The notes under the pieces were generated by a model that was not told the DNA's origin, ran no database searches, and worked only from the letters and a program-made list of their open reading frames with translations. The position numbers and the translations under genes were made by a program. DNA of 36,363 bases, taken from the NCBI GenBank assembly GCA_002841685.1, contig PHAM01000014.1:1-36363 (forward strand), in the 5' to 3' direction. Below, one piece after another: positions 1-29,741 of this stretch. Origin of the DNA: Elusimicrobia bacterium HGW-Elusimicrobia-2 (GTDB lineage: Bacteria; CG03). Numbering within the stretch: the first letter of the stretch is position 1; each line of letters starts with the position of its first letter.

Positions 1-960
1 GCCAATACCCGCCACACGGATGCCGAGATCCGTTCCGTTTCTGGCCATAACGGAGACAATGGTTGATTTTTCAAGGCCGGCTATCGTATCGGCTGTCGCT
101 TTGCAGGCGGCCATCGACACATTGAGATAGCTGTGCGGGTTTGACGCTATGAAGTCAATGATCTCTTTGATAACACTTTTCGCGATTCCCGTCTTGAGAA
201 AAAGAGGTATCAGCTCTTTTATAAGGATATCCGTCGCCGCGACATTCCTGTTGTGGCACTCATCGCCCATCATCAGCGCCTGCGATGTTATGGCTTTTAT
301 ATCTATACCGCCCGGGGACTGCCTGAGAGCCTCATTTATCGAGGGGGCCAAAACATCTTCCATCCACTTGAGATGCTTTAAAACATCGGGGGAATTGGCG
401 CCGAACCTCAGCACTTTTCCAAGCCCCTCGTTCAGCGTGCAGTAGGCCTTATTGCCGAACTTTTTGTTTTCAACGACATAAACCCACATCGAGGAGGACA
501 CCACCCCGGCCATGGGGCCGACAGTTGAATGATGATGGCAGGGTGAAAACTCTATTTCGCCGCGGTCGACGAGAACCTTCGCTTCCTTCAGGTCCGCGGC
601 CAGTCCCTCATAAACGATGGCGCCCAGAACCGCGCCCATAACGGGGCCGCACATATTTTCCTTTGTCACGGGAGGCCCTGCGTGAAGTATGAGGTTTTTC
701 TTCATACCCGGTATCACGTCTTTCGCGCGGGCCGTGGCTATAAGAACGGGCGTTGATTCATTGATCCGGCGGATGCCCTCGGCGTTTGCCGCGTCTATCT
801 CGTCTTTTATCTGTTCGAGCGAATCCAGCAGCGCCGCCATCCCGGTATCGCCCCCGGCAAAAGGCGTGAACCCGGCGTTGCGCACATCAGCGCCCTGCTT
901 TTTCAGCGCGTCGTAGAAAAGATCCACTCCCAGGTTGATTATCTTATCGTTCTTAAACAT
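1..960 (-). CDS. DUF1116 family protein (YlbE/AllG-like, putative oxamate carbamoyltransferase subunit), C-terminus beyond window edge
   Basis: Own reverse translation from ATG at 960: MFKNDKIINLGVDLFYDALKKQGADVRNAGFTPFAGGDTGMAALLDSLEQI...GPPVTKENMCGPVMGAVLGAIVYEGLA...; open to the window edge; directly adjacent to FdrA-like and DUF2877-like ORFs. Confidence 0.85.
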   Translation of the reverse strand, partial: MFKNDKIINLGVDLFYDALKKQGADVRNAGFTPFAGGDTGMAALLDSLEQIKDEIDAANAEGIRRINESTPVLIATARAKDVIPGMKKNLILHAGPPVTKENMCGPVMGAVLGAIVYEGLAADLKEAKVLVDRGEIEFSPCHHHSTVGPMAGVVSSSMWVYVVENKKFGNKAYCTLNEGLGKVLRFGANSPDVLKHLKWMEDVLAPSINEALRQSPGGIDIKAITSQALMMGDECHNRNVAATDILIKELIPLFLKTGIAKSVIKEIIDFIASNPHSYLNVSMAACKATADTIAGLEKSTIVSVMARNGTDLGIRVAGIG

Positions 961-2038
961 CGTCATTCCTCCATTTTATGGTCTGAGCGGAATTTTTGAG
1001 AAACTTCAGCCGCTGGTCGAAAAAGCTCCACGAATCCAGCTTTATAGCGTTCAGCATCATCTTTATTTCTTTTTCATACATTCTTTTGAGCGTGTCTTTT
1101 GAGAGTTCCGGCCACAGCTTTTTTTTGGCTTTTTCAAAGACCGCGTAATCGGCGTAGGGAAAAGGATGCCTCAAATTGTAGATTTCAGGCACGCTGTAAC
1201 CGCTTTTGCTGAGCTGTTCCCAGTACTCGACGATATCCCTGAAATGTTTTCTCCAGTTGAAGGCCCTGGCTCCGACGTCATAAACGGCGCATCTTTCTAT
1301 GCGCGATGAGATAGTCTGAGAGGCCTCGAATTCCGGGCTCAGAAGAGCGTTTGTCCTGATAAGGTCTGTACCGTCTATCGCGAAGGGCAGCTCTCCTTTT
1401 TTCTCGACGAGCTCAAAACGGCCCTCTATGTAAAACACATAAGCCTTGAAATCACGGTTCTTCTTCCTGAATTTTTTCTCATAAGCACTGATGATCTTTT
1501 CCGTGTAAGGCGTGCCTATCGTAAAAAATATGAATCTGTCCAGTTTGACGTCCATGTCCAGTATGCAGTCAAAGCCGTTCTTGAGCGTGGTGCCCGTGGC
1601 TATAACATCCCCCGCTATGAGAGATGTCACGCCTTCAAGCGAGAATTTCCTGTATTGATCGTGCTTTATCTGCCAGTGCTTGCCCTTCTGCACCCGCTGG
1701 GAGGTCATAAAAGAAGCGTTCACTTTTGTGAAACCGTAGCACTTGTAGAACTGTTCTATGAAGTTGAAATTCAGCCCGCCTCTCAGAAAGTGCAGCGCCG
1801 AATATTGCGAACCCCCGTTATCATCTTTGAAAAATTTCATGGCAAACGGAGTTTTGAGAAAATTTTCAATACCCTTCCTTAAAAGATAGGTGTATTCAAA
1901 ACCGTGTATCTCAGGCATATTGAGGATTTTTCTCGTCGCGGGCGTTGAGATTATGTACCTTTCAATGCTTGATGCGGGACATATCCTGTATAGCGCCGCG
2001 TTAGTGGGTCCAGGGATTTTTTTAAGACAATCGTTCAT
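953..2038 (-). CDS. Uncharacterised protein with phosphoribosyltransferase-like motifs, embedded in the fdrA-type operon
   Basis: 361 aa ORF overlapping both neighbours; contains 'ALHFLRGGLNF' and 'LIAGDVIATGTTLKNGF', resembling the type I PRTase PRPP-binding loop (hhh-D-h-hATG-x-T). Confidence 0.6.
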   Translation of the reverse strand: MNDCLKKIPGPTNAALYRICPASSIERYIISTPATRKILNMPEIHGFEYTYLLRKGIENFLKTPFAMKFFKDDNGGSQYSALHFLRGGLNFNFIEQFYKCYGFTKVNASFMTSQRVQKGKHWQIKHDQYRKFSLEGVTSLIAGDVIATGTTLKNGFDCILDMDVKLDRFIFFTIGTPYTEKIISAYEKKFRKKNRDFKAYVFYIEGRFELVEKKGELPFAIDGTDLIRTNALLSPEFEASQTISSRIERCAVYDVGARAFNWRKHFRDIVEYWEQLSKSGYSVPEIYNLRHPFPYADYAVFEKAKKKLWPELSKDTLKRMYEKEIKMMLNAIKLDSWSFFDQRLKFLKNSAQTIKWRNDDV

Positions 2039-3510
2039 TTGGAGAAAAGAATCTCGCGCACGGCCTCAACCGCCTGCCTGTTCGTGTGATAAACAAGAGC
2101 GCCTGCCTCTTCCAGCTTCTTCTGCTGGGCATTATAATCCTGAGGATCGCCATAAGAACCGGTGATGGGAGTGACAAAAATAATACCGGGATTTGTTTTT
2201 GTCGCCTCCACTATCGCTTCCGCAAGCTCTCCGGCGGGGTCATTGTGACAGCCCCATCCGAGGGTGCAGTCCAGCAGTATGACGCCTGTCTGGGGGTCTT
2301 CCGCCTCCTGAGCTATCCTCTGTTTCCTCAGCGTAAAATCCATCATAGGGTGAGGATATCCCCTCGTGAAATCATCTTCGCCCATATCAACAAGGGAATT
2401 TTTGATGCTTTTAAAAACATCCTGAAGCGAAAGATCTTTGTTTATGGGAGTGTTGGAGAAGATCTCAATGTCTTTCAGCAGATAGAGCGCCTCGTAGCAG
2501 AGCGTTCCGCCCGCATATAGAGCGCGGAGATATTTGCCTTTGAGCTTCGGCAGCCTGTGGGCGGACACGGGCAGGACGGCTTTCTCGTTCAGCAGGCGGC
2601 AGGCCCGCACGGCCGCTTCTTCAAGATTGGACGCGAATTTTATGTTGCCGAAATCCTTGAGTTCCATTGTCAGAAAATTGATAACATATTCCTTTCTTCC
2701 CGCCTTGGCTTTTGAAATTATCTTATCCGCCACATCAGCGTCGGGCGGTTTGGATATTATCACGATGACATCGGTGCTCTTATCGCTTTCCAGCAGATCC
2801 ATCGCCGCGAGCAGGCTCAATCCGCCGACGGCGCTTTTTATATCCCTGCCTCCGACGCCTATAACCTGCGACATACCCTGCCCCATCTTGTCTATGGCGC
2901 ATGTCAGCTCCTGAATACCCGAACCCGACGCTCCGGCAATGCCTATGTTCCCCGGCTTGATGACATTGGCGAAGCCGAGACCTTTGCCGTTTATTATACA
3001 GGTGCCGCAGTCAGGGCCCATGAACAGAAGTTTTTTCCCGACAGCGAGTTTTTTGAGCCTTATTTCATCAGAAAGCGGCACATTATCGCTGAATACCATC
3101 ACATTTTTCCCGGCCATCAAAGCCCTTTCCGCTTCCCTGGGAACATATCTTCCGGGGATGGACATCAGCACCAGGGCGGCATCGTCCAGAAGCGCTGTGT
3201 CAAAAGAGCTGTCGGACTCTTCGGCGCTGTCTTTTTCAGAAGATTTAGCGGCCATGACTTTTTGAAAAGACGCGAACATTTTTTCGGCCTCAGCGGTATC
3301 CGCGTCAACCGCGAATATGAGATCGGCACTGAGGGCTTTTTTCCCCTCGTCGGAAAGAAGACCGAGGCTCTCCAGCAGTTCCATGTTCTGGGGAGTCGCC
3401 ATAACGGCTGAAACGTTTTTGTTGGAGAATTCATTCCTCACGCTGTTCGCCGCGTTCATGAGCACCACGGAATCGTTATAATTATCTTTCAGAATAAAAT
3501 TTTTCAGCAT
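2035..3510 (-). CDS. fdrA: FdrA/AllF-like acyl-CoA synthetase-fold protein
   Basis: 491 aa; 'FMGPDCGTCIINGKGLGFANVIKPGNIGIAGASGSGIQELTCAID' and 'VILLDCTLGWGCHNDPAGELAEAI' typical of FdrA. Confidence 0.9.
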   Translation of the reverse strand: MLKNFILKDNYNDSVVLMNAANSVRNEFSNKNVSAVMATPQNMELLESLGLLSDEGKKALSADLIFAVDADTAEAEKMFASFQKVMAAKSSEKDSAEESDSSFDTALLDDAALVLMSIPGRYVPREAERALMAGKNVMVFSDNVPLSDEIRLKKLAVGKKLLFMGPDCGTCIINGKGLGFANVIKPGNIGIAGASGSGIQELTCAIDKMGQGMSQVIGVGGRDIKSAVGGLSLLAAMDLLESDKSTDVIVIISKPPDADVADKIISKAKAGRKEYVINFLTMELKDFGNIKFASNLEEAAVRACRLLNEKAVLPVSAHRLPKLKGKYLRALYAGGTLCYEALYLLKDIEIFSNTPINKDLSLQDVFKSIKNSLVDMGEDDFTRGYPHPMMDFTLRKQRIAQEAEDPQTGVILLDCTLGWGCHNDPAGELAEAIVEATKTNPGIIFVTPITGSYGDPQDYNAQQKKLEEAGALVYHTNRQAVEAVREILFSK

Positions 3511-4220
3511 GCCTTTACAACCTCCGTATTATTTTCGTCAGCTCCGCCGCATGAAACCGCGCGCACGCACTCGTTTTCCGCCATGCCCTTGATGACGCCT
3601 ACAGCCGTGGCGGCGCCCGAGCTGCCGCCGAAAGAAAGTATGGAAAGATCCTCTTCCTTTATAAAGGCGGTTATCTGATCCGAAAATCTCCCGCAAAGGG
3701 CGTGCCTTAGAAAATGCGCGCTCAACGGCGTCGTCTTGGAGAGATCGAGTTTAAAGGGTATTTCCATTCCTCCCATTTTTTTCGCGGCGATGTACCCGAC
3801 AAGGAAATCATCTCCTGAGGGTGTCAGGCCTCCGCCGAGTCCGAGAAGCTTTTTCCAGTTCCTCCCGGCGATGAGGAAATCCAGTATGTTCTTAAAATCA
3901 TCCTGCGCGAGGCGCCATTTATCCTCGGCTCGGGCAGAGGCCTCAAATGAGATGCTGCATTCGGAGGGGAGCTCCAGAGACTTTGCTTCGCCCGATATCA
4001 ATTCCAGCGAAAGCTCATCCATAACCTGTACTTGCTCATACACAGCTTCCGGGAACACAATACCTCCCGGCACGAGCTGGTTGGGGCTTTTGAGAAAAGT
4101 TATGAATTCGCCGGCGGGGTTCCTGAAATAACAGGAATTCGCGTATTTTTTGACAGCGCGCAGCTTAAGAAGAGAGGCCGCGCTTATGAAATCGTCGTAA
4201 TATAGAGCTTTGGCACGCAT
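3504..4220 (-). CDS. DUF2877 family protein (YlbF/AllH-like)
   Basis: 238 aa; 'LLGLGGGLTPSGDDFLVGYIAAKK' motif; overlaps fdrA start. Confidence 0.85.
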   Translation of the reverse strand: MRAKALYYDDFISAASLLKLRAVKKYANSCYFRNPAGEFITFLKSPNQLVPGGIVFPEAVYEQVQVMDELSLELISGEAKSLELPSECSISFEASARAEDKWRLAQDDFKNILDFLIAGRNWKKLLGLGGGLTPSGDDFLVGYIAAKKMGGMEIPFKLDLSKTTPLSAHFLRHALCGRFSDQITAFIKEEDLSILSFGGSSGAATAVGVIKGMAENECVRAVSCGGADENNTEVVKAC

Positions 4221-4324
4221 AGAATCAATTTATCATTTTCAAAAAGAAAAAGCAAATCCGCGAATTTTAGATAATGTAAGTGTCGCCGAAAAAAACGCCT
4301 TATCGGGGATAAGTCACTGTTTGA

Positions 4325-5548
4325 CTAAAATTTTTCGCCCAGAAGATCGCCGAGTTTGCGCGCGGCGCGGGTCAGATATTCCGGAGCGTTTTTAACGGCT
4401 TTTTCCATCTCCATTTTAAAAGGCGTGATCTTTATGAACACCATGTTCTTGTTGTCTTTGATACCCTCTTCCATTTTTCCGGCGAACACCACGACGGTTT
4501 TCCCGTATTCCGCAGCTCTTTGCGCGACATAGCCGAGGGTTTTGCCCGAAAAGCTCTGCGAGTCAACCCTGCCTTCTCCGGTTATCAGCAGATCGCAGGA
4601 AGATATATTGTCATCCAGCTTCAAACATTCCGAAACCGTCTCAATACCCGGCTTTATTTCGGCGTCAAGGAGTCCGGCCATCCCGGCGCCCGAACCTCCG
4701 GCCGCGCCGCCGCCGGGGATACAGCTTACATCTTTTCCCGTCGCGCTTTTTATTATAGAGGCATAATGAGAAAGCGCTTTTTCAAGAAGCATGACTTCGT
4801 TCGGAGACGCGCCTTTCTGCGGCGCGAACACAGCCGCGGCGCCGCGGGGCCCGATAAGAGGGTTTGTCACGTCGGCGAGTGCCGTGAATTTAACGCCTGA
4901 TATTTTTTTTGATAAATGAGAAGTGTCTATCTTAACAAGACCTTTCAAGGCCCCGCCGCCGTCGGGAATATGATTGCCGTGTTTATCCAGAAACTTAACG
5001 CCCATGGCCGCGAGCATCCCCGCTCCGCCGTCAACCGTGGCTGAGTCGCCCAGGCCGACAAAGATTTCGGTGCAGCCTCGCACGAGAGCGTCATTGATGA
5101 GTTCTCCCGTGCCGCGGCTGCTTGTTTCCAAGGGCTTCATATCTTTTTTGGGAAGCCTCGAGAGCCCGCTGGCCGAAGCCAGGTCTATAAATGCCCGCTT
5201 TGAATGCCCCCCGGGCGGGGCTGAAAGTCCGCCGGTAGGCGTGGCCGAAATGAAATAAGACGCCCTCACTTTTTTCCCTGACGGGCCGGTGACCGTTTTT
5301 ATCACTTCCTCACCGCGCAGTGCACTGCCCAGTATCCGAGCAGTGCCCTCGCCGCCGTCGGCAAGAGGCAAAAGCTTTATGTCGGCAAGGAGCATCGACC
5401 TTTCCAGGCCTTCCCTTATGCATGATGCCGCCTCCTCCGCGGAAAGAGATCCCTTGAAACTGTCGGGGCAGACGAGGATGTTCAGCTTGTTTTTTTTGGC
5501 GCGAAGAGCCTCGGCGCGATTAATTCCCTGATTTGTATTTTCCTCCAT
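4325..5548 (-). CDS. Glycerate 2-kinase (GlxK/GarK family)
   Basis: 'NILVCPDSFKGSLSAEEAA', 'LPLADGGEGT', 'FVGLGDSATVDGGAGMLAAMG', 'LLITGEGRVDSQSFSGKT'. Confidence 0.92.
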   Translation of the reverse strand: MEENTNQGINRAEALRAKKNKLNILVCPDSFKGSLSAEEAASCIREGLERSMLLADIKLLPLADGGEGTARILGSALRGEEVIKTVTGPSGKKVRASYFISATPTGGLSAPPGGHSKRAFIDLASASGLSRLPKKDMKPLETSSRGTGELINDALVRGCTEIFVGLGDSATVDGGAGMLAAMGVKFLDKHGNHIPDGGGALKGLVKIDTSHLSKKISGVKFTALADVTNPLIGPRGAAAVFAPQKGASPNEVMLLEKALSHYASIIKSATGKDVSCIPGGGAAGGSGAGMAGLLDAEIKPGIETVSECLKLDDNISSCDLLITGEGRVDSQSFSGKTLGYVAQRAAEYGKTVVVFAGKMEEGIKDNKNMVFIKITPFKMEMEKAVKNAPEYLTRAARKLGDLLGEKF

Positions 5549-5568: not shown

Positions 5569-6282
5569 ATGCATAAACCTAACATACCCCGTCCGATAAA
5601 AAAAATATGGCGTTTTTTTAAGCCCTTTGTCAGGCAAAGCCTGTTTCCCTTTCTGGGCATTGTTTATTCTCTCCTGTGCTGGGCCCTCATGAAAACCATT
5701 CGGATGAAAGTGGCGGGCGGCGAAAACCAGGACGAAGTGATGGAGGCGGGGAAAAAATACATCTACGGTTTCTGGGACGGCAGGCAGATGATGCTCTTTC
5801 CTTTCGCCGCAGGAAAGAACCTTGTCATCCTCGCGTCGAACTCGGACGCGGGCGAGGTGCTGAAAGTGATACACCGTTTCTTCACGCTGAAAGTCGTGCG
5901 CGGCTCTTCAAGTTCCGAGGGCGCGAGGGCATTGAAAGTGATGGTAAGGGCGCTGAGGGGAGGCTGCAACGGCGCCCTGGCGGTCGACGGCCCTCAGGGG
6001 CCGCCGGAGATAGCGAAAGGCGGCATAATACAGATGGCGAAAATGTCGGGCGCCGTAATACTTCCTCTCTCCGCGGGAGTGAGAAAAAAAATCTTTGTTG
6101 ATTCCTACTGGAACAGGGTGCAGATACCCATGCTTTTCACCAGCGGCCGCTATGTCATAGGCAAAGCAATAGAGGTGCCGCGCTCGGCGAATAGACACGA
6201 TATGGATAAAATGTTAGCATTGTTCCAGATGGAACTGGATAAGATAACAAAGGAAAGCGATGAATTTCGTACAATATTATAA
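5569..6282 (+). CDS. DUF374 domain-containing lysophospholipid acyltransferase family protein
   Basis: 'ILASNSDAGEVLKVIHRFFTLKVVRGSSSSEGARALKVMVRAL', 'AVDGPQGPPEIAKGGIIQMAKMSGAVILPLS'. Confidence 0.85.
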   Translation: MHKPNIPRPIKKIWRFFKPFVRQSLFPFLGIVYSLLCWALMKTIRMKVAGGENQDEVMEAGKKYIYGFWDGRQMMLFPFAAGKNLVILASNSDAGEVLKVIHRFFTLKVVRGSSSSEGARALKVMVRALRGGCNGALAVDGPQGPPEIAKGGIIQMAKMSGAVILPLSAGVRKKIFVDSYWNRVQIPMLFTSGRYVIGKAIEVPRSANRHDMDKMLALFQMELDKITKESDEFRTIL

Positions 6283-7675
6283 AGACCCGGTCATCCGGGA
6301 GCGCATTGCCGAATACTGCGGCGGAGACGCCGATAACCCCGACTCTTTCACCGCGCAATATCTCGTGGGATACGGTCTTGAGCTCCTGCGGGAAAAACAC
6401 ATTGAATTCATGTCCGCCCCCAGGGAATATTTCGATTATCTGCTCGAAAAAAGCCTTGATATATACAGGTCGGTCTGGGACATAGAATCCACGCTGGGCG
6501 TCCTCGACATAGAATACTTTAACATAGACAACCCGGGGAAAATCTACAAAAGCCCCGAAGAGATATTTTCTCTGATAGAACCCGCCTACGCGAAGATCCG
6601 CGAGGTTTTCGCGAGGTTCGGTCTCGTGCCCCTCACCATAATGACCGGACAGGGTTATCATTTCTCATTTAAAATATCGCGCTTCTCCGCAGCGGACAAG
6701 AAACTTGAGGGGATCGGCTTTGTCGCGGACAAACTCAAAAAACGTTATCAGATAATCAAGGGAAGACGGAAGAGGGCTGTTTCAATCAGGCATGGTAAGG
6801 CTTTTGAGGGCATGGGCAAAGTCCTTGAATACGCCGTGCACACTATAATGAAAGAGCTCGCCGGCGAAAATTTCGCCATTCCCTGCGTGATAACCGACGT
6901 AACCATCGGCGAATCGTCACGCGGAAAAAGAGAAGCCCTTTCATTTGACCTCTCAATGTACGGCGACCCTATTTTCATGCGCGACATACGCTGCCCTTTC
7001 AGCACCCATCAGAAAAATAAAATGCAATGGTACAAAGTTGGCAAAGATGCCGCCGACAACATTGCCCCGCGGCTTGCTCTGCCCAGGAATGACACAGCCC
7101 TTAAAAAAATCCTTGAAATCCGCACCAGCCCCGAAAAAACGATAGAATACGCTAAAAAATGTTCCTGCATAATACCGGATTTTTCAAAAGAATTCATGAA
7201 CCTGGTGAATTCATACGAGGCTTCGCGCCTGCGGGGCATACACCGAGATTTCGACGAAACCCAAACGCACACGGAAAAAGAATGGCCTGAAACTTACGAT
7301 ATGCTGGATCCTTTCGCACTGCCTGAATGCACGCGTCTCGCCCTGCTTTTGCCCAACGACAACATCCTGCGGCCTACCAATATCCAGAACCTTGTCAGAG
7401 TCCTTATGTTCAAAGGCTGGCATCCCAAGCACATAGCGGGCCTCGTCACATCCAAATACGAGAGGAAACAATACAACTGGACGGAAAACTGGGAAAAATA
7501 TGACGCCGCCTCACGGGCCAATTTTTATGTGCGGATCTTCTCCGATCTCATACTGACGGGAATTGACGGAGAGATAGACCTCAACTGTGTGTCAGCCAAA
7601 GAAATGGATTTCTGCCTGAAAGAATGGTGCGGGTGGAATTTGAGTGACTTTAAGTTAAAAGGAGAAAACAAGTGA
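6260..7675 (+). CDS. Putative stand-alone archaeo-eukaryotic primase (AEP/PrimPol-like) protein
   Basis: 471 aa; motif I-like 'GVLDIEYFN' (hhhDhE), motif II-like 'MTGQGYHFSF' (sxH), motif III-like 'LSFDLSMYGDPIFMRDIRCPFSTHQKNKM' resembling the hhD...RxPxSxH segment of PriS. Confidence 0.6.
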   Translation: MNFVQYYKDPVIRERIAEYCGGDADNPDSFTAQYLVGYGLELLREKHIEFMSAPREYFDYLLEKSLDIYRSVWDIESTLGVLDIEYFNIDNPGKIYKSPEEIFSLIEPAYAKIREVFARFGLVPLTIMTGQGYHFSFKISRFSAADKKLEGIGFVADKLKKRYQIIKGRRKRAVSIRHGKAFEGMGKVLEYAVHTIMKELAGENFAIPCVITDVTIGESSRGKREALSFDLSMYGDPIFMRDIRCPFSTHQKNKMQWYKVGKDAADNIAPRLALPRNDTALKKILEIRTSPEKTIEYAKKCSCIIPDFSKEFMNLVNSYEASRLRGIHRDFDETQTHTEKEWPETYDMLDPFALPECTRLALLLPNDNILRPTNIQNLVRVLMFKGWHPKHIAGLVTSKYERKQYNWTENWEKYDAASRANFYVRIFSDLILTGIDGEIDLNCVSAKEMDFCLKEWCGWNLSDFKLKGENK

Positions 7676-8259
7676 AAAACATTTTTGTGATTTGCATTTC
7701 ATTGCTGATGATCGCAGGCTGCGCGCCTGTGAAAGTAGGGCGCATGGATTCCGCCGCGGAAGTTGATCTTTCCGGGTACTGGAATGACACCGATTCGCGG
7801 CTCGTGGCGGAAGAGGCGATAAGTGACTGCCTCGGCCGGAGCTGGCTGCCGGACTTCAGCGCCAGCGCAGGGAAAAAACCCAGAGTTATCGTCGGCACTG
7901 TCAAAAACATGTCGAGCGAACACATCGCCACAGACACTTTTGTGAAAGACATGGAAAGAGAGCTCATCAATTCCGGCAAAGTGACCTTTGTCGCCGGTGG
8001 CGCTGAAAGAGAGGAAATAAGACAGGAAAGAGCCGAACAGCAGAAATTCTCCGGAGACGCCAAAGCGTTCTTCAAGGAAAAATCAGCGGACTTCATGCTC
8101 CAGGGCGGCATAAACAGCATACTGGACAGCGCCGGAAAGACAACACTGCGCTATTATCAGATTGAGCTGGAACTCATTGACATGGAAAGTAACGAAAAGG
8201 TCTGGATAGGACAGAAGAAAATCAAAAAGCTCGTCAAGCGTTCCAAGTTCGGCCTTTAA
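7672..8259 (+). CDS. LpoB-like penicillin-binding protein activator lipoprotein
   Basis: Lipobox 'LLMIAGC'; 'PRVIVGTVKNMSSEHIATDTFVKDMERELINSGKVTFV...ADFMLQGGINSI...YYQIELELIDMESNEKVWIGQKKIKK'. Confidence 0.75.
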   Translation: MKNIFVICISLLMIAGCAPVKVGRMDSAAEVDLSGYWNDTDSRLVAEEAISDCLGRSWLPDFSASAGKKPRVIVGTVKNMSSEHIATDTFVKDMERELINSGKVTFVAGGAEREEIRQERAEQQKFSGDAKAFFKEKSADFMLQGGINSILDSAGKTTLRYYQIELELIDMESNEKVWIGQKKIKKLVKRSKFGL

Positions 8260-8262
8260 CCG

Positions 8263-9699
8263 TTGAAAAGCTTTCGTAAAAAATGGGACTGTCCCCATTA
8301 CGGGCGAAGTCGTAGATGGGGACTGTCCCCATTCATATTAGCGTTTTCTTTAATAGCCGGATGTGCCGGAAAGAATTTTTACGCGAAGATAAACGCCGAA
8401 TCCGCCGGAGGGCGCTATGAATCCGCCCTTAAGGACATAGAGACAAACCGTAAGGAATATTACCCTTCCAAGGACACCCTGCTCTATTTTCTGGACTCGG
8501 GCATGCTCTCGCACCTCGCCGGAAAATACAAGGAAAGCAACGAGGCATTTGAAAAAGCCAAAATGCTCTCAGAGCAGCTCTACACAAAAAGCCTCAGCGC
8601 CGAGGGCGCTTCTCTTCTGATAAACGATTCCCAGAAAGCTTATGACGGCGAAGACTATGAGATAGCCATGATCTATCTGATCAAAGCCCTTAATTACGCC
8701 GCCATGGGAGAGGAAAACAGCGCCATGGTTGAGATAAGGCAGCTCGATCATTTCTTCAAAACTATCAGCGTGAACGGCGGCTCGGCTGGGGATGAGGAGA
8801 TAAGGCCCGGCGCCTTATATTTTTCAGCCATCGTCAGGGAATCGGCCGGAGACAGCAATGGCGCCCTCATAGATTATAAAAACGCCATTTCGGCTTTTGA
8901 GAAAAAGGGAACAACGCCGCCCCGCGGCCTGATAAAAGGCTGTTACGCGGCCGCGGTCAATATGGGCTTCCGGGACGAAGCTGATCGTCTGAAAAAAAAT
9001 TACGACCTGAAGCAGAACGAGACCGAACGGGGATCCAGAGAGGAAATAATCATCGTCCATATCAACGGCCCCGCACCGGTGAAGACAGGCCGCACCATTG
9101 AGGTCTCTTTCGGCGACGGATGGGCATACGCCCAAAGCATACAAACAAGCGGCGACGACCAGAAAAAATTCGCGGCGGCAAACGCGGCGGCGAGAGGATT
9201 CGCCTCAAAAAAAACTTTCAGCGTGTCCTTCCCCGAATACACCCAGCCCCCTTACAGCTGCGCTTATTTAAATGTTGAAAGCGAAGGAAAAAAATTTGCT
9301 ACGGAAAAAATCTCGGATATAACTTCCGCCGCTGTCAAGAGCCTGAAAGACCGCATAAACCGCATACGCGCTAAATCTATCGCGCGAGCCTGGATAAAAC
9401 ACGTGCTCGCCAGAGAAGCCGAAAAATCCGCCGAAAAAAGCAGTGGGAAGACCATGGGCATGCTCGTCGGCGGCGGTCTGAGAGCTCTTTCCGCCGCGAC
9501 AGAACAGGCGGATATCAGATCCTGGCGGACATTAGGCGCGGAGATCGCCATTTGCCGTATCCCCGCCGAAGAGGGCACTTTTAATCTGCATCTGGCGATG
9601 AAAAACAGCGCCGGATCCGATCTAGGCGAAAAAATTCTGGGCGGGGTGCAGGTTCAAAAGAACAAAAAAACTTTCCTCTCCGTGCGCACTTTTATCTGA
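8263..9699 (+). CDS. COG3014-like TPR-containing lipoprotein (apparent TTG start)
   Basis: Lipobox 'LIAGC'; 'GMLSHLAGKYKESNEAFEKAKMLSEQL...YEIAMIYLIKALNYAAMGEENSAMVEIRQL'; follows lpoB-like gene. Confidence 0.65.
   Translation: MKSFRKKWDCPHYGRSRRWGLSPFILAFSLIAGCAGKNFYAKINAESAGGRYESALKDIETNRKEYYPSKDTLLYFLDSGMLSHLAGKYKESNEAFEKAKMLSEQLYTKSLSAEGASLLINDSQKAYDGEDYEIAMIYLIKALNYAAMGEENSAMVEIRQLDHFFKTISVNGGSAGDEEIRPGALYFSAIVRESAGDSNGALIDYKNAISAFEKKGTTPPRGLIKGCYAAAVNMGFRDEADRLKKNYDLKQNETERGSREEIIIVHINGPAPVKTGRTIEVSFGDGWAYAQSIQTSGDDQKKFAAANAAARGFASKKTFSVSFPEYTQPPYSCAYLNVESEGKKFATEKISDITSAAVKSLKDRINRIRAKSIARAWIKHVLAREAEKSAEKSSGKTMGMLVGGGLRALSAATEQADIRSWRTLGAEIAICRIPAEEGTFNLHLAMKNSAGSDLGEKILGGVQVQKNKKTFLSVRTFI
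8282..8332. repeat. Pair of GGGGACTGTCCCC-type palindromes
   Basis: ATGGGGAC-T-GTCCCCAT (8316-8332, perfect arms) and AATGGGACTGTCCCCATT (8282-8299, one-base defect). Confidence 0.8.
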
Positions 9700-26958: not shown

Positions 26959-28128
26959 TCATTTCCCGACACCTTCGGACTTTTCGTCCAAAAAGCCGGC
27001 CAGTTCACTAACAACCAAATCTATATCACTCCTGTCTATTACAAAAGACGGCAAAAAGCGCAGAATATTATCCTTGCAGGCGTTCACCAGAATGCCTTTC
27101 TTAAAAGAATACGCCACCGCTCCGCCCGCTATTGGTTTTTTGAATTCCACACCGATCATAAGCCCTTCTCCCCGTATCTGGCGGATAACGGGGAAACGCG
27201 CGGCGAGTTTTGATAAAGATGCCATAAAATAATCCCCGAGGGCATTTATCCTTTTCAGCATTTTAGCGTCAATGGATCTGAGAGTGGCCAGACCGGCGGC
27301 CACGGAGAGGGGATTCCCCCCGAAAGTGGAACCGTGAGAGCCGTATGTAAAATGTTTTTCAAGGCCCTCACCGAGCACCGTCACACCCAGTGGCAGTCCG
27401 CCGCCGGCGGCTTTCGCCAGAGTCAGTATGTGCGGTTTCACGAAGTATTTCTGAAACGCGAAAAGGCTTCCCGTCCTGCCGAAACCCGTCTGTATCTCGT
27501 CAAAAATAAGGAAGAGCTTGTGTTTCACACAGAGTTTTTTCAGATCCCGCAGAAAAGTTCTCTCGGCCGGATAGACGCCGCCTTCACCCTGCACGGGCTC
27601 GACCAGCACCGCCGCAGTCCGGGGGCTTATGAGTTTTTTCACGGAAGAAATATCATTGAATTTCGCAAAATCAAAACCCGTCAGAAGCGGCCTGAAGCCG
27701 TCATGGAACTTCTTCTGTCCCGTGGCCGAAAGAGTTGACATCGAGCGGCCGTGGAATGAGCCTGAAAAAGATATGATCCTGAATTTATTTCTGCCCTCGC
27801 CAGCTTTTCTGACGAATTTTATCGCCAGCTCATTCGCCTCGGTGCCGGAATTGGAAAAAAACACCTTGCCGGGAAAAGTTTTTTTGATGAGCAGATCGGC
27901 GTATTTTTCCTGATTCATATCCGTGTAAAGATTTGAGACATGCATGTATTTCCCGAGCTGATCTCTGACGGCCTTAATGACGGCTGACGGCCTGTGCCCC
28001 AGAACATTCACGGAGATCCCGGATATAAAATCAAGATATTTTCTGCCGCTTATATCCCATATGTATTTCCCCTGAGCCCTGGCGACAGTGATATGCACCT
28101 TTTTGTAAACAGGGAGTATGTTTCTCAT
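26959..28128 (-). CDS. argD: Acetylornithine aminotransferase-like class III aminotransferase
   Basis: 'YLDFISGISVNVLGHRP', 'FFSNSGTEANELAIKFVRK', 'LIFDEIQTGFGRTGSLFAFQ', 'TFGGNPLSVAAGLATL'. Confidence 0.92.
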   Translation of the reverse strand: MRNILPVYKKVHITVARAQGKYIWDISGRKYLDFISGISVNVLGHRPSAVIKAVRDQLGKYMHVSNLYTDMNQEKYADLLIKKTFPGKVFFSNSGTEANELAIKFVRKAGEGRNKFRIISFSGSFHGRSMSTLSATGQKKFHDGFRPLLTGFDFAKFNDISSVKKLISPRTAAVLVEPVQGEGGVYPAERTFLRDLKKLCVKHKLFLIFDEIQTGFGRTGSLFAFQKYFVKPHILTLAKAAGGGLPLGVTVLGEGLEKHFTYGSHGSTFGGNPLSVAAGLATLRSIDAKMLKRINALGDYFMASLSKLAARFPVIRQIRGEGLMIGVEFKKPIAGGAVAYSFKKGILVNACKDNILRFLPSFVIDRSDIDLVVSELAGFLDEKSEGVGK

Positions 28129-28763
28129 TCTGCGATTATATTAAAATACCGCCTTCTCCGCAAGAAAAAGTTCTTCTCAAAAAACATTTCCTGCATTTGC
28201 CGATAGTCCTCATTTAATTGAATAAGATGTCCATCCTGAGGCATTAAGCGCAAACTACCGGGCTTTGCTAAATCATAACGCGCGTTTGTATCTTTAAAAA
28301 ATAAGGCCTTATGCTCGGCAACTTTTATCAATAATCCAATATTCTCCAGTGCTTTATTAAAAATTGGAGAATCAACCATTTCGAATACATCATAATAATG
28401 CCGGGACATTCTTGGGCGAACTTTTGAACTGTTGCTTATTGCGTGCAATATTGTCGCTTTTTCCCAAAAAGTTCTTTCAGCTCCTAACACACGAACGGAA
28501 GCGCCTTCAATAACCATCTTGTCTGATGCATTCGCAATGTAAGGTTTAATAGACATAGTTTCGACCGGCCAATGATCAGAACGAGCGCCCAATTCAATCT
28601 TAACAACGGGCCTTACATAATTTTCTATGCTGCTTTTCACAACATAAGGATATGCAAACAAAATGGTTTGTCTGTCTGCGTCAGTCGGATCCGGTTCAAT
28701 GCTCCATTCTTCCAAACCGGGTAACGATTTATTAATTTTATCCCTCAATTCAGGTATGATCAC
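28125..28763 (-). pseudogene. AbiEii-like nucleotidyltransferase toxin, C-terminal part (GTG start; -1 frame relative to the N-terminal ORF)
   Basis: 'VIEGASVRVLGAERTFWEKATILHAISN...RMSRHYYDVFEMVDSPIF' typical of AbiEii C-terminal half; GTGA overlap with upstream ORF. Confidence 0.75.
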
Positions 28764-29119
28764 TTCGCTAATTTTTTCTTGACATGAGACTGCCTCAAGC
28801 GCTCCAATCTTCTTTGATTTTCTTTACCACTCTGCTGCTTTTCGGGTTCAATTGATCCCTGACTTACTAAGAACGATCTTTCAATCGAAACATCAACATC
28901 CTCAGAGAATCGCTTAATAATGTTGTAGCATTTTGAAAGAGAGGTGCCCCCTTTAAATGTGAAATGACTGCCTGATTCGGGTAATGAAAAAAGTATTTTT
29001 AGTATCCAGCATACCCAGAAGTCCTTTTCAATCAACTGCGGCATCACATGTAAGTTGTCCGCGGCCACCCCGAAATAGGCTTGCTTGTCATCCTCACTTA
29101 ACAATAAAAATTTATTCAT
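28760..29119 (-). pseudogene. AbiEii-like nucleotidyltransferase toxin, N-terminal part
   Basis: 'PQLIEKDFWVCWILKILF...FTFKGGTSLSKCYNIIKRFSEDVDVSI' (GGTSLSK ... FSEDVD nucleotidyltransferase motif). Confidence 0.8.
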
Positions 29120-29126
29120 ATAATTC

Positions 29127-29726
29127 TCATCTCTGCAATTGTCTGAATATACCGCCTATCCATGCCGGAGCATAACAGATATCTTTTACAAGCCCCTTTT
29201 TATCTTTTTCGGTCAATTTGTATTTAAGTTTTTCTATTACAATTGAATCGACATAATCTCGCTTTAAATAACGCAAAGCCTGAATGACTAAGCCGCTTAT
29301 TTTTCCAGCTGTTGCCATATTTTTGGGAGTTGTTCTTTTTAAAACAATTTGCCTTTTACCAATTTGAAGTTTGCTATTAGGTCCGTCAGTTAGAAAGACA
29401 ATCTTTGCCGGAACCTGCTCTGTTAAACCCAATAGATTCGCAGCATAAGCTCCGGAAGGCTGGATCTTCAAACTACCTCTTCCAGCCAATGCTTGAGCTA
29501 TACGCTCATAATTAGGCGGGATATCCCAAAAATCATGGTGTTTTTTTGGATACTCATAAAGCCCGCAGGCTAATCGGCGGATAGTTCCGGGTTTGACCAA
29601 ACGCCCCAATGCCTGATCTATGGCTGCACGGCTTCCTAAATCAAGAAAATTACTTGGAGTAAACACCCAACCCCTCTTCTTGCCGTATATTCTGCTAAGT
29701 ACCTTATTATTAACGCTTTGCACCAT
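29127..29726 (-). CDS. AbiEi-like antitoxin/transcriptional regulator (DUF6088 type)
   Basis: N-terminal winged-helix-like 'VFTPSNFLDLGSRAAIDQALGRLVKPGTIRRLACGLYEYPK'; precedes AbiEii. ATG at 29726 has AAGGAG spaced 6 nt; the ORF-track ATG at 29732 abuts the SD. Confidence 0.82.
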   Translation of the reverse strand: MVQSVNNKVLSRIYGKKRGWVFTPSNFLDLGSRAAIDQALGRLVKPGTIRRLACGLYEYPKKHHDFWDIPPNYERIAQALAGRGSLKIQPSGAYAANLLGLTEQVPAKIVFLTDGPNSKLQIGKRQIVLKRTTPKNMATAGKISGLVIQALRYLKRDYVDSIVIEKLKYKLTEKDKKGLVKDICYAPAWIGGIFRQLQR

Positions 29727-29741
29727 TTGCATCTCCTTTTC

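Follow-up and report, generated by a model that had tools for sequence, protein, structure and literature searches.

The question raised by this locus is what an archaeo-eukaryotic primase (AEP)-like protein is doing among lipid and envelope genes on a bacterial chromosome. The window, by which we mean the whole stretch of DNA that was analysed, is the 36,363-nucleotide contig PHAM01000014.1 of Elusimicrobia bacterium HGW-Elusimicrobia-2. A 471-aa open reading frame at 6260-7675 on its forward strand had been proposed from the sequence alone, and this frame was borne out, with every quoted motif found at its stated residue. The 23-nt overlap with a DUF374 gene and the LpoB gene downstream were also recovered (Table 1), the latter call (7672-8259) matching PF13036 with an E-value of 1.8e-38, but the COG3014-like label given to the following gene at 8263-9699 found no support in Pfam or NCBIfam. 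In comparison with a 91%-identical relative (L010), the primase gene shows 36, 18 and 157 differences at codon positions 1, 2 and 3, respectively; 157 of the 211 differences thus fall at third positions, and 142 of the 184 changed codons are synonymous. This codon-position pattern indicates that the reading frame is a real gene under purifying selection. Its GC3 is 0.587, with values of 0.56-0.66 in neighbouring genes. Chance occurrence of the motifs can be excluded, since identical motif residues are found in two families, here called A (that of the window protein) and B, which are approximately 27% identical.

Table 1. Coordinates in the window of the primase gene (P0001), its neighbours and its predicted functional elements.
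Feature	Position	Strand	Remarks
DUF374 acyltransferase gene	5569..6282	+	Upstream; 23-nt overlap with the primase gene
Single-chain PriS-PriL(CTD)-like primase-polymerase gene (P0001)	6260..7675	+	471 aa
AEP motif I, GVLDIEY	6497..6517	+	D83 and E85, predicted metal ligands; predicted strand 77-88
AEP motif II, TGQGYHF	6644..6664	+	H134; predicted strand 132-140
AEP motif III, SFD	6941..6949	+	D230, predicted third metal ligand; end of predicted strand 225-230
Motif IV, RDIRCPFSTHQK	6980..7015	+	R241, R244, S248, H250, Q251, K252
PriL-CTD-like helical domain, LPxC...C-x8-C-x4-CG	7319..7642	+	Predicted Fe-S (or Zn) site
LpoB lipoprotein gene	7672..8259	+	Downstream; 4-nt overlap with the primase gene stop codon

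The AEP motifs are strongly conserved. D83-x-E85 (motif I, hhhDhD/E) occurs without exception among the full-length proteins of families A and B, the sxH of motif II (G132-Y-H134) is invariant among full-length members, and so is the aspartate of the motif III hD (F229-D230). R244, the motif-IV arginine typical of the PrimPol-PV1 supergroup, is invariant across the family. In the window protein the core of motif IV reads R244-C-P-F-S-T-H250, with R244 in strand 242-244, and the spacing between R244 and H250 equals the six residues between R231 and N237 of PolpTN2. Where the window protein has motif II, plasmid-borne archaeal PriS-like proteins read SGQGVHV or SGRGYHI.

In order to place the fold, AlphaFold2 models of the whole window protein (22-sequence input; pLDDT 88.6, pTM 0.91) and of the whole family B paralog (pLDDT 88.9) were searched with Foldseek. 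The top 24 PDB matches of the window protein were all AEPs, with probabilities up to 1.00, and included LigD-PolDom, Prim-PolC, human PriS, CAPP, archaeal PriS and poxvirus D5/E5; the paralog matched the same leading AEP families. The E-values were borderline (best 2.8e-3; TM 0.3-0.5), suggesting that the window protein is a divergent AEP. In the model the catalytic D, E, H and D and the motif-IV arginine lie on the expected strands in AEP order, and from these strand positions we infer that they would cluster in an active site. The AEP identity proposed by the sequence-only reading, for which AlphaFold and Foldseek had been named as the check, is therefore upheld by the nature of the best PDB matches and by the placement of the motifs. 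Profile comparison of the N-terminal half with a PriS set by hhalign gave a score of 30.9 (shuffle maximum 22.5) with a probability of only 18%. Sequence searches of the window protein against Pfam, NCBIfam, PHROG, PADLOC and the PDB returned nothing significant, and PF01896 (PriS) had no match at E<=1, whether in the proteins or across the entire genome. Matches of the window protein to the Terminase_5, RPE65 and IclR families fell below threshold and were dismissed.

The remainder of the protein contains a second domain (residues 354-461) of the form LPxC...PTxxQxxxR...GWHPKxIAGL...NC-x8-C-x4-CG. Its cysteines C357, C443, C452 and C457 occur in every Cys-type member, and family B lacks the set. 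A PPC/PC...C-x(8-10)-C...C pattern is found in primase fusions of Thermus phages, haloviruses and a methanogen virus and in PriL-like proteins of archaeal plasmids. When untrimmed C-terminal ends were compared by hhalign, the domain matched the viral fusions and archaeal PriL-like proteins with 86.7% probability and a score of 43.2, which was reached by none of 150 column shuffles (best 22.5) or by the reversed control (11.3). The full-length family matched the viral fusions at 94.4% (E 9.5e-8; 91-94% over the fusion comparisons) in a single collinear alignment that starts at motif IV and extends across the four-Cys domain. A comparison with two Thermus phage primases alone gave a probability of 0.2%; it was too shallow, and archaeal plasmid PriS/PriL-like pairs and further viral fusions were therefore added. 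Against the plasmid PriL-like proteins alone the C-terminal match was weak (4.5%). The best score to PF04104 (DNA_primase_lrg) was 14.7 bits against a cut-off of 22.4, with an E-value of 0.02 over the C-terminal region of L007, and a search of the window's own genome with this profile gave no match. A PriL consensus and a yeast PriL segment served only as queries to retrieve relatives; one non-decisive comparison (FLyc) took in the yeast segment with its sequence corrected from the PDB.

On these sequence comparisons, the window protein is best described as a PriS-like and a PriL-CTD-like domain in one chain, with no obvious PriL NTD; purifying selection acts on both domains. Of the earlier description as a stand-alone AEP, then, the AEP part stands, and the stand-alone part does not, given the fused domain of the PriL Fe-S type and the second AEP paralog in most genomes of the family. 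By ungapped counting from the PriL cysteine, the PriL arginine that is essential for initiation (R355 in yeast) falls on Gln376 in the window protein, whose de novo initiation may therefore be altered or missing; the viral fusions also have no arginine at this position and carry one four residues earlier. On haloarchaeal plasmids (L051, L055-L061, L065), a PriS-like gene directly precedes a gene for a 'primase-associated protein', which has a PriL-like Cys pattern at its C-terminus and is matched by 87 plasmid records.

A second AEP, of the Cys-less family B, is present in 6/7 genomes of the window's family; in the window's own genome it lies at G000:C58:10079-11263, and in G004, which is 63% complete, only family A was detected. 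In three genera the family B gene stands between genes for a PHP phosphoesterase and clpC (L002:560-4183, L032, L033), and in L002 the reading frames of this arrangement overlap. One genome (G043) has a second copy of a different, Cys-bearing type, and that type is the only one in its two phylum mates. In UBP18 and KR13, A and C copies, both Cys-bearing, form a tandem near cysS (L007:7995-10822, L008:3435-6612); in L008, about 27 aa are inserted in frame between the third and fourth cysteines of the second tandem copy. G100 has two copies besides family A, arranged in tandem: a B-like AEP and, encoded directly upstream of it, a very divergent third AEP-like protein (L046:679-2235, G100:C105) of 519 aa with the motifs FMLDIE and SGKGYHF. 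The catalytic residues are kept in all A, B and C copies of our residue table, the two extra G100 copies standing outside it. The Cys-less paralog is predicted to be an Fe-S-independent counterpart. The PriL-CTD is known to hold the initiating nucleotide, and PriX, a relative without the cluster, can take its place (PMC5700102), which makes a Cys-less paralog less odd.

Within the window's class, all 8 genomes sampled contain family A, against 0/8 from other classes of the phylum. Outside the phylum, 3 of roughly 80 genomes sampled had it, and in the small phyla to which these belong family matches were present in 3/3, 2/2 and 1/2 genomes; family A also occurs in UBP18 and in one unclassified bacterium. 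One match, in G032, was an unrelated thioredoxin-reductase frame and was rejected. Amino-acid identity to the window protein tracks kinship, being 97, 91 and 85% within the genus, 72, 66 and 64% within the family and 50% within the class, and within the phylum the family tree agrees with the taxonomy of the hosts. PEUP01000005 is a close relative of the window from the Elusimicrobiota. Those relatives whose flanking DNA extends far enough preserve the acyltransferase-primase-LpoB order. Searches of 50,697 phage and 72,556 plasmid records, a scope outside which IMG/VR lies, found no relatives. The primase gene is native, chromosomal and vertically inherited, as seen from its GC3, purifying selection and the kinship pattern. 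The chromosomal, non-mobile location that had been read from the sequence is thus confirmed by native composition, vertical pattern and the lack of relatives in those phage and plasmid records, and the window annotation agrees that no helicase, integrase or plasmid gene lies beside the gene.

Housekeeping genes characterise the window (rplI-dnaB-alr, ssb, radA, ligA, nusB, infC), with dnaB, ssb, radA and ligA 8-25 kb from the primase gene in ordinary clusters of this kind. The acyltransferase and LpoB genes are taken as co-transcription partners only, with no hint of a DNA role. In two phyla (G033, G007), an AP_endonuc_2/xylose-isomerase TIM-barrel gene follows the AEP gene (L017:2888-3727, L018:940-1764); the AP_endonuc_2 family contains some AP endonucleases and mostly sugar isomerases. 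Elsewhere in the window, an AbiE-type toxin-antitoxin locus occupies 28125-29732 on the reverse strand, with a DUF6088 (AbiEi-like) gene at 29127-29732 whose GC3 is 0.34 against about 0.60 elsewhere, and AbiEii spread over two frames (28760-29119 and 28125-28763, covering profile positions 2-58 and 81-225). The locus resembles a foreign insertion in which AbiEii has been split or frameshifted. Also on the reverse strand, 953-5548 encodes a 361-aa unknown protein, an FdrA-like acyl-CoA synthetase, an AllH-like protein and a glycerate kinase, a cluster that suggests oxamate/allantoin-type metabolism in the host bacterium.

DnaG scored above its cut-off in 19/19 genomes checked, so the window AEP is not the sole primase of its host and a replicative-primase role was rejected. 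Ku was found in 0/9 genomes (the window's genome and eight relatives), so the AEP is not an NHEJ polymerase, and that role was likewise rejected. With these roles eliminated and the active site conserved, the most likely answer is an accessory primase-polymerase that works at gaps or stalled forks; an accessory role of the PrimPol type would, as judged from gene content, be compatible with both the presence of DnaG and the absence of Ku. We consider it probable that the gene encodes a single-polypeptide primase-polymerase, an AEP joined to a PriL-CTD-like domain and passed on vertically, which would serve in vivo as an accessory repriming or gap-filling enzyme. In such an enzyme D83, E85 and D230 of the AEP domain would support two-metal nucleotidyl transfer, and H134, R244 and H250 would grip the incoming nucleotide. 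The four-Cys domain is predicted to bind a 4Fe-4S cluster (Zn being possible) and would help to hold the initiating nucleotide and the template. Acting alongside DnaG in an accessory capacity, the enzyme could then make or extend short primers wherever chromosomal DNA is exposed as a single strand, either to reprime at stalled forks or to fill gaps.

A different possibility is that the protein is not a primase at all but a gap-filling polymerase like Prim-PolC or LigD-PolDom, working in excision repair or end joining, with the C-terminal domain positioning it on DNA. LigD-PolDom and Prim-PolC are indeed its top structural matches, DnaG already supplies primers, and the AP_endonuc_2-family gene follows the AEP gene in two genomes (G033, G007). 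We nevertheless regard this as unlikely, as Ku is absent from the nine genomes, no ATP-dependent ligase gene adjoins the AEP gene (the ligA of the window is NAD-dependent and far off), and a PriL-type domain is typical of primases and not of PolDom enzymes. The lack of any DNA-repair gene in the operon, and the coupling of the paralog to a PHP phosphoesterase and clpC, which suits RNA or stress metabolism no less than DNA metabolism, could also point to an AEP that has been exapted and has given up acting on DNA, for instance an RNA-end or nucleotide-signalling transferase; the retention of catalytic residues, nucleotide-binding residues and the PriL-like domain together, as in known primases, makes this very unlikely. 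A domesticated or cryptic primase of a mobile element, without any role for the host, would agree with the finding that bacterial PrimPol-PV1 AEPs lie nearly all in integrated mobile elements (PMC5862659), and the closest architecture matches that we found are viral. With no integrase, helicase or phage genes alongside, native GC3, purifying selection, kept gene order, a tree that follows host taxonomy and no relative in the phage and plasmid records searched (IMG/VR being outside them), we consider this explanation highly improbable.

If the accessory primase-polymerase reading is extended to the whole family, an inherited second priming system, of archaeal/eukaryotic type, may persist beside DnaG in several lineages of bacteria, namely one class of Elusimicrobiota, UBP18 and small candidate phyla. 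It would consist of a single-chain PriS-PriL(CTD) Fe-S primase, often accompanied by a catalytically intact paralog whose cluster was lost in some lineages, and would restart replication after fork stalling. We offer this wider proposal tentatively, at somewhat below even chances. A family with a PriL-type fusion, fixed and inherited in bacterial chromosomes beside DnaG, would offer a test of dedicated bacterial repriming, and the A/B pair, with and without cysteines, would be a natural comparison for the function of the PriL Fe-S cluster. The family could also inform how PriS and PriL became joined. As the window protein is small, single-chain and expressible, these points are directly testable.

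The fusion architecture itself is known from archaea, plasmids and viruses; this bacterial chromosomal family had no precedent in the sources searched. No paper linking Elusimicrobia with AEPs was found in the literature searched, though absence there is not proof of novelty. Published surveys place bacterial AEPs mostly in mobile elements (PMC5862659), with others in the LigD and Prim-PolC repair systems, and the PrimPol-PV1 supergroup has its home in mobile elements, whereas the window gene has housekeeping surroundings. The mycobacterial Prim-PolC and LigD-PolDom enzymes, the best Foldseek matches, are bacterial chromosomal AEPs with repair roles, but they have no PriL-like domain and are tied to ligase and Ku, partners that were not found for the window AEP.

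PriS-PriL fusions occur in Nanoarchaeum equitans and in DPANN cluster 2/Undinarchaeota (PMC7414124). Like the window protein, they are PriS-like and PriL-like in a single chain, chromosomal and vertically inherited (N. equitans being compared by description only); they differ in being archaeal primases of hosts without the bacterial DnaG replisome, whereas the host of the window has DnaG, and similarity of the window protein to the PriS and PriL families (PF01896, PF04104) is below detection. A fusion is also known in PolpTN2 of the Thermococcus plasmid pTN2 and in a Bacillus provirus (PMC3973330). PolpTN2 resembles the window protein in its fusion and its four conserved cysteines, and it synthesizes primers and polymerises dNTPs (PMC3973330), but it is a 923-aa plasmid protein with both PriL NTD and CTD and no motif-II histidine, whereas the window protein is half that size and has His134. 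By record annotation, the 'eukaryotic type primase' of Thermus phages P23-45/TSP4 and the primase of haloviruses HCTV/HVTV have the small subunit N-terminal and the large subunit C-terminal. They share the collinear order of AEP motifs followed by a PPC/PC...C-x8-C...C domain, but are viral replication genes of approximately 310-385 aa, those of HCTV adjoining PCNA and RFC genes, and pairwise BLAST detected no similarity between them and the window protein. The Cys-less paralog has its parallel in Sulfolobus PriX (PMC5700102), which is related to the PriL Fe-S domain, has no cluster and stands in for that domain at initiation; PriX, however, is a separate non-catalytic subunit, whereas the paralog is a whole AEP with its catalytic residues intact.
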